NCBI RefSeq assembly: GCF_003569045.1 | Contig: NZ_BFCB01000004.1 | Location: 362,281 to 426,280, forward strand | Direction: 5' to 3' | Origin: Aggregatilinea lenta | Lineage (GTDB): Bacteria > Chloroflexota > Anaerolineae > Aggregatilineales > Aggregatilineaceae | Length of the DNA stretch: 64,000 nucleotides | In this document: piece after piece, positions 16,012 to 62,282 of the stretch | How the letters are laid out: every line of letters begins with the position of its first letter | Position numbering within the stretch: the stretch's first letter is position 1 | The notes under the pieces: model-generated | Told to the model about the DNA's origin: nothing | What the model saw: only the letters and a program-made list of their open reading frames with translations | Database searches by the model: none | Made by a program: the position numbers and the translations under genes

Positions 16012-18447
16012 TTAGTCGCCTGCGCCAACCGCTTCCGTGATACGTTCGCTTGCCACGTCGTCAGCTATTTCGATACGGCGGTCGCTGCGGCGCACGGCCC
16101 AGAGGATCAGCGCGATGGAAAGGACTCCGCCCGCGATTACACCCACGCCATACCCATTGTACTGGACGACGATCGGAGCGAGGATCAAGGACACCAGATT
16201 CATCACCTTGATCATCGGGTTGAGCGCAGGACCGGCTGTGTCCTTCAGCGGGTCGCCGACCGTATCGCCGACGACACTCGCCTTGTGATTTTCGCTGTTC
16301 TTGCCGCCAAAGTTGCCGTCTTCAATATACTTCTTGGCGTTATCCCACGCACCACCTGCATTCGACATAAACACCGCCAGCAGCTGGCCGGACATAATGA
16401 CGCCCGCCAGGAAGCCGCCCAGCGCCTGTTCCTTGAGCAGCAGACCAACGGCAATCGGGGCCAGCACGGCAATCACACCCAGCGGAACCAGTTCTTGCTG
16501 CGCAGACTGCGTCGAGATGGTCACGGCCTTGGCATAGTCCGGGGTCTTGGTACGATCCAGGATCTTGGGGTCACGCAGTTGGCGGCGCACTTCGGCCATG
16601 ATGAGGCCAGCAGCGCGGTTCACGGCCTTGATGAGCAAACCGCTGAACAGCAAAGGCAGCGAGCCACCGATGAGCAGGCCCACGAACACCGTCGGGTTAG
16701 CCAGATTGATCACTTCCTCGAAGTCCGGCTTCACGCGTTGAATATCTGCAAAGAAGCTGCCGAACAGCGACACTGCCGCGATCACTGCCGAACCAATCGC
16801 CACACCCTTGGTGATGGCTTTGGTCGTGTTTCCGGCTGCGTCGAGGTCGGCCATGATCTGACGTGCCTCAGGTCCCATACCCGCCAGCTCGCCGATGCCA
16901 TTCGCGTTGTCAGAAATCGGACCGAAAGTGTCCATGCTGACGTTGTTGCCCGTGTGTGACAGCATACCCACGCCGATCAGCGTGACGCCGAACAGAATGT
17001 AGCTGTAGCGATGGACTTCCGGAACCTCTTGCATGCTCACGAGGAACAGCGCCACAACCATAATCCACAGCGCGGAGAAGACGCCCCCGATTAGGTTCCC
17101 CTTACTGCGTCCACGGACAATCCCGTAGATCGAGAGGGCCACACCGGCCAACACGGCAAAGATCTCGTATTGGTCAGGAAAATCAAAGCTGTAGACCATG
17201 ATCGCGGCCAAAAGGCTCGCCACAATCACGAAGAGTGCCCAGACGCTGGAGAGATACCCCAGCGACAGACCTTCGAGAATAACCGACGCCGGACCGAACC
17301 GCGTCGAGGCAGAAATAACCTTGACGCGCTCGCTCTTGGCGCTGGTGGCATAGGAGGTCAATGGATTGAAAATCACCGCCAGAGCCACACCCACGGCAAC
17401 CAGTGTCGCCAGGGAAAGCTGACCGGCGTAGAGCCACGCCAGCAAGAAGGTCGAGGCAATCGTGATGAAGCTCGACACTTCGTAGCTCTTGAACATCGCT
17501 TCTTCAGCGTCGTCTACGTGCCACATGGACACAGCATAGGTTCCCACAATCGAGCTGACCACGCCGATGCCACGTACGAGGAGCGGAACAATGATCCAGT
17601 ACAGTTCGCCGTTAATGGCAGTGAGCGCCAGGCCGAGGATCAGGCTGGACACGATGGTCACTTCGTAGGATTCGAAGATATCCGCGGCCATACCGGCGCA
17701 GTCGCCAACGTTGTCGCCCACGAGGTCGGCGATCACGGCGGCGTTACGCGGATCGTCTTCTTCCATACCGGCTTCGACCTTACCCACCAGGTCTGCGCCG
17801 ACGTCTGCCGCCTTGGTATAGATACCGCCACCCACGCGCATGAACAGCGCCAGCAGCGTCCCACCGAAGCCGAAGCCCAGCAGCACGTCCGGGGACGCCT
17901 CACCGAAGATGATAAAGATCGTCGTACCACCGAGCAGGCCCAGGCCATCGGTCAGCATTCCGGTAATCGTGCCGGAACGATACGCGATTTTCAATGCTTC
18001 CTGGTAACCGCCCTTTTCGGCGGCTGCGGCGACGCGTACATTACCCTGTACGGCCATGTTCATGCCAAAGAAACCCACCATCGCCGAGAAGCTCGACCCC
18101 ATGATGAATGCAATCGCACGCGCGAAGGCAATCACGATCCGTGCCGTGTCTTCATCGTTGTCAAAGTAAGCACGAGCTTCGGGGGTGGGCTTGACCACAA
18201 AAACACTGAGGAACATGGCGACCGTCAACACAACGATCAAGATCGCCACGGTCTTCAGTTGGGTGCGGAGGTATGCGTTCGCGCCGTCACGGATATACCC
18301 CCAGATGCGCTGCATCTCGGAGTTGCCCTTGTCGGACGACATAATGTAGTTGCGTAACCATAACGCGTAGGCAAGCGCTACGCCAGCGATTGCAAGCACG
18401 ATGAACATCATGACTTGCTCGAAGGCTTTGATATCCATTTGGAACAT
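16012..18447 (-). CDS. hppA: Membrane H+-translocating pyrophosphatase, K+-independent type
   Basis: About 811 residues with many hydrophobic segments. It couples pyrophosphate hydrolysis to ion pumping across the cytoplasmic membrane. The family signature DVGADLVGKVE (about 215-225) and the catalytic segments DDPRNAAVIADLVGDNVGD and the late acidic SVVGDTVGDPLKDTAGPALN are intact. The subtype motif reads GNTTKAITKG with Lys543 and Thr546. The known rule is that Lys/Thr here marks K+-independent H+ pumps, and Ala marks K+-dependent enzymes. The start is chosen at ATG 18445-18447, 13 bases after GGAGG; a second ATG nine bases downstream is possible. A peptide-coding leader with a terminator lies upstream on the same strand. 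Confidence 0.95.
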   Translation of the reverse strand: MFQMDIKAFEQVMMFIVLAIAGVALAYALWLRNYIMSSDKGNSEMQRIWGYIRDGANAYLRTQLKTVAILIVVLTVAMFLSVFVVKPTPEARAYFDNDEDTARIVIAFARAIAFIMGSSFSAMVGFFGMNMAVQGNVRVAAAAEKGGYQEALKIAYRSGTITGMLTDGLGLLGGTTIFIIFGEASPDVLLGFGFGGTLLALFMRVGGGIYTKAADVGADLVGKVEAGMEEDDPRNAAVIADLVGDNVGDCAGMAADIFESYEVTIVSSLILGLALTAINGELYWIIVPLLVRGIGVVSSIVGTYAVSMWHVDDAEEAMFKSYEVSSFITIASTFLLAWLYAGQLSLATLVAVGVALAVIFNPLTSYATSAKSERVKVISASTRFGPASVILEGLSLGYLSSVWALFVIVASLLAAIMVYSFDFPDQYEIFAVLAGVALSIYGIVRGRSKGNLIGGVFSALWIMVVALFLVSMQEVPEVHRYSYILFGVTLIGVGMLSHTGNNVSMDTFGPISDNANGIGELAGMGPEARQIMADLDAAGNTTKAITKGVAIGSAVIAAVSLFGSFFADIQRVKPDFEEVINLANPTVFVGLLIGGSLPLLFSGLLIKAVNRAAGLIMAEVRRQLRDPKILDRTKTPDYAKAVTISTQSAQQELVPLGVIAVLAPIAVGLLLKEQALGGFLAGVIMSGQLLAVFMSNAGGAWDNAKKYIEDGNFGGKNSENHKASVVGDTVGDPLKDTAGPALNPMIKVMNLVSLILAPIVVQYNGYGVGVIAGGVLSIALILWAVRRSDRRIEIADDVASERITEAVGAGD

Positions 18448-18776
18448 GATGAACGATACCCCTCCTATATTCAAAAAAGATGTAGGTCTAAGAACGACCT
18501 GCGACGACCTGCAGGTATGATATGGCTGAATTGTTCAACGCCCATATTAATTAGGGTATTTCGATGCAGCGAGAACGATCCTAATCATTCCCCTAAATGA
18601 ATCAGGTGAGGGCGAGCCAAATCACGGGCTAAATAATACCCCGTTCACAAAATATGGACCACAGCGCCAAGCGCGAATAGAACTAGAGTTTAGGTTTGGA
18701 GGTCAAAAAGGTGAGTATTAGCATCCCAGCACTGCGAAGCCAGGCATGGAGGGTTGCAAGCCAGAGGCTCGAAATG
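18448..18776 (-). other. Non-coding stretch between the leader terminator and hppA
   Basis: About 330 bases with AT-rich patches and no convincing ORF. A GGAGGGG before the hppA start and a TATTAT box near 18640 without a good -35 partner are the only signals I can see. An independent hppA promoter may lie here but cannot be shown from the sequence. Confidence 0.4.
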
Positions 18777-18803
18777 AAAAGACCCCGACGAATCGGGGCC
18801 TTT
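18777..18803 (-). terminator. Intrinsic terminator at the end of the hppA leader
   Basis: The plus strand reads AAAAGACCCCGA-CGAA-TCGGGGCCTTT. On the minus strand this is a 6-8 bp GC-rich stem with a TTCG loop followed by TCTTTTC. It lies 25 bases after the stop codon of the 19-residue ORF and about 330 bases before hppA, both on the minus strand. Confidence 0.8.
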
Positions 18804-18816
18804 CCATTACTGTGTT

Positions 18817-18864
18817 GGCGCTGTGACACTAGCTCTCATCCGAGAGGAGGGGTGTCACAGCGCC
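18817..18864. repeat. 13-bp perfect inverted repeat overlapping the leader ORF
   Basis: GGCGCTGTGACAC (18817-18829) and GTGTCACAGCGCC (18852-18864) are perfect inverse complements separated by 22 bases. The spacer itself contains a shorter CTCTC/GAGAG pair. On the minus strand the first arm lies inside the 19-codon ORF and the second arm begins at its TAG, so translation would melt this hairpin. Confidence 0.85.
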
Positions 18865-18888
18865 ATACGTGCTACTACTATCATACAT
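18829..18888 (-). CDS. 19-residue leader peptide or small protein upstream of hppA
   Basis: The ORF ATG TAT GAT ... AGC TAG encodes MYDSSSTYGAVTPLLSDES. It is preceded, 6 bases upstream, by AAGGAGGTG (18895-18903), a perfect complement of the 16S anti-Shine-Dalgarno, and further upstream by a near-consensus promoter. The peptide is Ser/Tyr/Asp-rich with no membrane segment. A 13-bp inverted repeat straddles its 3' half and stop, and an intrinsic terminator follows. The design fits a translated leader controlling readthrough to hppA, or a free-standing small protein gene. No amino acid is strongly over-represented except Ser (6 of 19). Confidence 0.7.
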   Translation of the reverse strand: MYDSSSTYGAVTPLLSDES

Positions 18889-18954
18889 CGACACCACCTC
18901 CTTCTTTTTGGGATGGCAATTGGAGGCTCGACCACCGGGATGATCGATAGCGCG

Positions 18955-18983
18955 ATTATGCCATAGACCGCGTGTTCTGTCAA
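18955..18983 (-). promoter_or_regulatory. Near-consensus sigma70-type promoter of the hppA leader
   Basis: On the minus strand TTGACA (18978-18983), a 17-base spacer and CATAAT (18955-18960) match the consensus in 11 of 12 positions. The start would fall near 18948, giving an untranslated leader of about 60 bases before the 19-residue ORF. Confidence 0.8.
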
Positions 18984-62094: not shown

Positions 62095-62136
62095 GAGTCA
62101 CCTCCGATCCGCGAGAGATGCGTACTTTATATTTCC

Positions 62137-62258
62137 GTCCAGGCGGGTAGTCTGGCTTTGCGGGCAATAAGCGCCCACACTACAGCTGCGGGTCAGCGCC
62201 GGACTCGGACCGGCTTCCCCCATTTTGACCAGCGCTTCCGGGCGTTGGTCACCTGGAC
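62137..62258 (-). ncRNA. Cobalamin riboswitch
   Basis: On the minus strand the closing stem GTCCAGGTG (62250-62258) / CGCCTGGAC (62137-62145) encloses AAAATGGGGGAAG and the conserved core GTCCGAGTCCGGCGCTGACC then CGCAGCTGTA, matching the usual AATCCGGCGCTGCCCCGCAACTGTA. The B12 box is AGCCAGACTACCCGCC (62142-62157). A GACCA/TGGTC arm is also visible near the 5' end. It sits just downstream of a promoter at 62283-62311 and upstream of a hairpin, so it very probably controls the secreted protein gene by attenuation. Confidence 0.93.
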
Positions 62259-62282
62259 TTCCATAATTGTAAGGTCGGGCGA

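Follow-up and report, generated by a model that had tools for sequence, protein, structure and literature searches.

Here, we report a small RNA gene, previously undescribed and unannotated, on the minus strand of a contig of Aggregatilinea lenta; by the window we mean the whole stretch of 64,000 nucleotides that was analysed. Comparison of its sequence with those of relatives suggests, with a probability that we put at roughly 0.55, that this is a free-standing gene of about 170 nt, of which much of the phylum Chloroflexota has roughly one copy per genome, and that its product would be a translated riboregulator, with a fold that depends on the access of ribosomes. In its architecture, it would best be explained as an RNA that serves at once as a tiny mRNA and as a structural switch, which may either conceal its ribosome-binding site or lay it open.

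All parts of the gene are encoded on the minus strand. It begins with a promoter, TTGACA-17-CATAAT (18,955-18,983, with TTGACA at 18,983-18,978 and CATAAT at 18,960-18,955), which has 11 of 12 consensus matches and is the one promoter-like site on this strand between 15,900 and 20,100. A 5' stem-loop follows in the predicted fold (TCGATCATCCCGGTGGTCGA, 18,928-18,947), the sequence of which differs among genomes, relatives carrying other 5' stems. The motif GCCATCC (element 0, 18,911-18,917), near-invariant across the class and at a near-fixed distance from the Shine-Dalgarno sequence (SD), is the partner of the latter in helix 0:1. The SD region (element 1, GAAGGAGGTGGTGTC, 18,890-18,904), in which GGAGGTGxTG is near-invariant in 78 aligned sequences, includes an SD that is perfect by sequence (GAAGGAGGTG, 18,904-18,895), such sites being complementary to the 3' end of 16S rRNA, known as the anti-SD sequence. 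The 19-codon ORF MYDSSSTYGAVTPLLSDES (18,829-18,888) runs from an ATG at 18,888 to a TAG stop codon at 18,831-18,829 and includes the 5' arm of the hairpin (element 2, GGCGCTGTGACAC, 18,852-18,864), which is one half of a 13-bp inverted repeat. Part of element 2 is an anti-SD, GACACCCCTCCTC (18,844-18,856), that covers hairpin arm and loop and is complementary to the SD region, while the 3' arm (element 3, GTGTCACAGCGCC, 18,817-18,829) has as its first base the last base of the stop codon. An intrinsic terminator, recognized by its sequence and predicted fold (AAAGGCCCCGATTCGTCGGGGTCTTTT, 18,777-18,803), completes the gene, and relatives have another sequence in the same place. The predicted fold of the window RNA reaches -77.3 kcal/mol (z = -6.5), with none of 200 shuffles equally good. 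Promoter, SD, 19-codon ORF, 13-bp inverted repeat and terminator had been listed in an earlier note on this DNA, and sequence, fold and relatives all bear this anatomy out; the SD-pairing GCCATCC (18,917-18,911) and the anti-SD in the hairpin arm and loop (18,856-18,844) are additions to that list.

A blast search with the leader located the element in 16 of the 18 genomes of the window's family, the window's own included, and in this family peptide, SD, hairpin and terminator are all retained, the terminator being variable in sequence and the hairpin showing compensatory changes. A first covariance model, built from the 16 sequences of the family, had a match in 160 of 396 Anaerolineae genomes, a single one in each, and none outside this class. 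A second model, built from 78 Anaerolineae sequences, matched 134 of 200 sampled Anaerolineae genomes, once in each, and matched other classes weakly. Reading of these weak matches yielded a second architecture and, from it, a third model, which detected the RNA in 111 of 120 Chloroflexia genomes (83 of the 86 of good quality), mostly as a single copy, and in 90 of 251 genomes across the phylum. A few Chloroflexia genomes, such as G783 and G909, carry two copies, which lie on different contigs. Copies occur in Bellilinea caldifistulae GOMI-1, Thermoflexus, Litorilinea and many Anaerolineae bins, and most of those read by eye in further Chloroflexota families retain SD, short ORF and terminator, L401 and L410 being doubtful. 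Against the reading as a conserved riboregulator stand some relatives with poor hairpins (for example L401) or an ORF that is short (L166), as does the lack of a match in a large part of the order to which the window belongs (families f2, f3 and f8). A specific pattern scan of 84,980 named genomes returned at least 120 records, and among the matches listed all but two are, to judge by their titles, from Chloroflexota. A match in Ensifer was rejected, as the surrounding features are absent and it looks like chance, and one in a Phycisphaerales bin (L287) is a true copy, probably on a mis-binned Anaerolineae contig. The proposal of the earlier note that the element is functional is supported by its conservation across genera, families and classes, and the comparison of relatives that it called for found both peptide and hairpin kept in 16 of 18 genomes of the family.

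The promoter is likewise recognizable in relatives. Among 111 Anaerolineae loci at least 10 of 12 consensus positions are matched in 95, TTGACA is present in 88 and the spacing is 17 in 95, and in Chloroflexia 31 of 36 loci have 10-11 of 12 matches. The ORF encodes 13-22 amino acids across the Chloroflexota copies. In 111 of 113 Anaerolineae loci its AUG lies 7-12 nt after GGAGG (at 8 nt in 72 of them) and 15-20 codons follow, with the stop codon in the hairpin loop (95 loci) or the 3' arm (16) and never before or after the hairpin, and in Chloroflexia the ORF has 14-16 codons in 35 of 36 loci. Where the alignment of its N-terminal half has gaps, their lengths are almost without exception divisible by three. 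Of 260 serines encoded before the hairpin at the 111 Anaerolineae loci, 245 have AGY codons, which is more than coding seems to need. The short ORF and its strong ribosome site, perfect SD, kept start, frame and stop together suggest that the leader is translated by design, as had been proposed from the window, and as far as these sequences tell, start, frame and stop position are what is kept, the amino acids appearing weakly constrained.

Three conserved helices compete with each other and are mutually exclusive: 0:1 joins the motif and the SD, 1:2 the SD and the anti-SD in the ORF, and 2:3 the anti-SD arm and the 3' arm. Covariation is massive in helix 2:3: 96.8% of cells are paired, double changes occur in 10 of 11 pairs, and there are 138 double-changed cells versus 29 in shuffles; its native duplexes reach -24.1 kcal/mol versus -13.1 kcal/mol with arms exchanged between genomes, a loss of 11 kcal/mol. 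Helix 1:2 is paired in 94.0% of cells and shows AU-to-GC covariation in 21 sequences, and its native duplexes surpass swapped ones in 81% of comparisons and fall short of them in 14%. In helix 0:1 the paired share is 92.9%, and changes of the partner are mainly C/U opposite G. In Chloroflexia, the SD region (AGGUGAUGCCC) recurs as element 3 (CGGUGAUGCCC), with GGUGAUGCCC as the shared repeat, and each of the two is complementary to element 2 (GGGCAUCACC). Of 411 loci, 296 have the combination of SD, ORF of 13-21 codons and hairpin exactly once each, and shuffling of the same DNA never produced it. Chance or a DNA-level artefact was rejected on account of the helix covariation and the zero matches in shuffled DNA, and so was a DNA operator, since the arms covary and the spacing varies.

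Predicted folding of RNAs of increasing length indicates how these helices may succeed each other. With the leader only, the SD pairs with the motif (0.57) or the 5'UTR (0.24), in the nascent RNA it pairs with element 2 (0.83), and once the RNA extends through the hairpin it pairs again with the motif (0.49) or the 5'UTR (0.27), element 2 being left with 0.04; in the full-length fold it stays in 0:1, the weaker helix, which is a point against the preferred reading. According to these predictions, the SD would pair first with element 0 during synthesis, element 2 would capture it once transcribed, and element 3 would then draw element 2 off, so that the SD would return to element 0. The hairpin starts 17-31 nt after the AUG (mode 22), and 22 nt is just past the expected footprint of an initiating ribosome. 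As the hairpin begins just beyond that footprint, a ribosome sitting on the SD should block 1:2 and an elongating ribosome should melt 2:3, and the fold would thus report whether ribosomes start on the RNA. The role that we infer is that of a translation-coupled riboregulator which would read the initiation capacity of the cell and act in trans or through its own stability, the peptide sequence being probably secondary to the act of translation. To our knowledge, no stand-alone, translated SD/anti-SD switch of such type has been known. As a tentative extension, which we regard as conjectural, the RNA might be a near-universal core Chloroflexota RNA that senses translation-initiation capacity globally, with an anti-SD inside the ORF that mimics that of 16S rRNA and would compete with ribosomes for the SD, and with a readout in trans. 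RNAs that are near-universal and single-copy throughout bacterial classes are few, and the known ones, RNase P, SRP, tmRNA and 6S, have core jobs.

The neighbourhood of the gene bears directly on the question of a target in cis. In the window, hppA, the gene of a membrane pyrophosphatase (16,012-18,447, minus strand; PF03030, E 2.6e-227), is a neighbour that lies outside the RNA gene, and the earlier note had considered the leader as an attenuator for it. In the window's family, an AIR-synthase-like gene (AIRS) usually comes directly after the terminator and hppA second; its product of about 334 aa (L003, L012 and relatives) contains PF00586 and PF02769 and is HypE/SelD/ThiL-like, below the NCBIfam cut-offs. 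Accordingly, a ribosome-mediated transcription attenuator for AIRS and hppA, in which a ribosome on the short ORF would set terminator read-through, has to be weighed. Within this family the RNA is always 5' of AIRS and/or hppA, whereas the upstream genes vary, and the AIRS start is often about 14-70 nt past the terminator, with scant room for another promoter; moreover, 17 loci, some of them in other families, have AIRS downstream in the same direction, which is perhaps an old arrangement, and this adjacency in some lineages leaves room for a cis role. On the other hand, AIRS has been lost from the window's genome and several other genomes of the family and the RNA upstream of hppA has been kept, and of two genomes that belong to further families of the order and carry the RNA upstream of AIRS, one (G153) has a convergent gene, not hppA, after AIRS. 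Outside the window's family the orientation of the downstream gene is random: of 113 Anaerolineae loci, 55 have the nearest one co-directional and 54 have it convergent, and in Chloroflexia the figures are 15 and 20; a consistently co-directional downstream gene is a trait of the window's family and some others. AIRS excepted, neighbour genes cluster solely within families. On inspection, we saw neither element 3 nor the ORF form an alternative pairing with the terminator, which folds independently in the predicted structure. Ribosome-mediated attenuators of the trp, his and erm type resemble the RNA in having their own promoter, a short translated ORF, exclusive helices and an intrinsic terminator; unlike them, the Chloroflexota RNA is without a fixed downstream gene, and its switch pairs the SD itself (0:1, 1:2, 2:3), the last helix not being a terminator. 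We therefore consider the attenuator unlikely as a general account, although in the window's family read-through may affect AIRS/hppA in view of the sequence arrangement: AIRS closely follows the terminator, and the window showed no further promoter-like site on the minus strand between RNA and hppA. A leader specific to hppA, as the earlier note had proposed, was not borne out, the genes next to the same RNA being unrelated, and in many cases convergent, in most Chloroflexota, and an hppA-only leader was rejected on this ground and on that of G153. The search for the same peptide apart from hppA, which the note had suggested, was successful, such loci being common outside the window's family, and its outcome counts against an hppA-specific leader. 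Since neighbours vary and the next gene is convergent as often as co-directional, the RNA gene is free-standing, a transcription unit with its own promoter and terminator by sequence, and its wide single-copy distribution together with the switching of its own SD makes it probably a stand-alone regulator and not a pyrophosphatase switch.

Of the other option in the earlier note, a free-standing small protein, the free-standing part is nearer the truth. That the gene serves a functional small protein, RNA structure controlling just its translation, would agree with the retention of start, frame, length and stop in 111 of 113 and 36 of 36 loci, with peptides that are alike within families (MSSKRMGVTAGEAR, MDSSIKPSAVASLLK) and with synonymous changes somewhat above the uniform expectation (0.249 versus 0.170). 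However, differences are near-equal at codon positions 1, 2 and 3 (763, 779 and 904 in Anaerolineae; 380, 390 and 384 in Chloroflexia), the anti-SD and the hairpin dictate the conserved AVAS/VTP part, and the anti-SD is read in another frame in L135/L155 and in L141/L143/L158, so that this account seems to us improbable. Type I toxin mRNAs carry SD-sequestering metastable helices, and the competing helices found here resemble those that conceal the SD of hok and aapA1 during transcription; an mRNA of this kind for a short peptide, its SD concealed until processing, is nevertheless very improbable, given that the peptides are Ser/Lys/Arg-rich in composition and not of the hydrophobic membrane type, that there is about one copy per genome, conserved class-wide, and that a casual look noticed no antisense partner. 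It might also be supposed that the loop-exposed CACCUCC, a mimic of the 16S anti-SD, blocks the SDs of other mRNAs in trans, the ORF tuning its exposure. Its place where the arm and the loop of a very stable hairpin meet would suit such an antisense RNA, but the anti-SD letters covary with the SD extension of the RNA itself because of cis pairing, and we hold action of this kind to be doubtful. The dual-function small RNAs SgrS/SgrT, RNAIII/delta-haemolysin and SR1/SR1P, likewise free-standing with a short ORF and their own promoter and terminator, are the nearest known systems; in contrast to their constrained peptides, the Chloroflexota peptide varies, the ORF enters the regulatory hairpin and the RNA covers much of a phylum. 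The translated riboregulator that we prefer would operate in the manner of an attenuator, with no fixed target gene, and lacks one of the features by which attenuators are defined.

No Rfam family reached its gathering score over the RNA of the window or of the relatives tested. RF01772 (rnk_pseudo) matched one Chloroflexia copy, most strongly at the terminator, with a sub-threshold score of 36.4 bits (cut-off 55). The Rfam motif RF01698 (Chloroflexi-1) has been listed for Chloroflexus aggregans (PMC2864571). RF01698 did not match the copies tested, and identity with an Rfam family was rejected, as no tested copy reached the gathering score. A literature search that covered few of the subscription journals found no description of the RNA, in agreement with the view of the earlier note that no such leader was known for hppA. 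Neither Rfam nor the papers searched thus contain the RNA, though it is apparently present in the cultured models Chloroflexus and Roseiflexus, and its anatomy couples its fold directly to ribosome binding. Among our coded genomes, we take G659 to be Roseiflexus sp. RS-1, its class presumably being Chloroflexia, G617 to be Chloroflexus aurantiacus J-10-fl, G722 Chloroflexus aggregans, G610 Herpetosiphon aurantiacus and G815 Sphaerobacter thermophilus.

Several further elements were observed at these loci. A 6S RNA (L048, 212-390, minus strand) lies downstream of the AIRS that follows the RNA in G038, and a selenocysteine tRNA gene (L155, 2,567-2,661, plus strand) is near the RNA in one Anaerolineae genome. 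In the window, a small hairpin followed by six T (18,484-18,500, minus strand), just 5' of the hppA ribosome site, is a possible second terminator-like element, and a cobalamin riboswitch (RF00174, 63.8 bits) is present at 62,125-62,271 on the minus strand.
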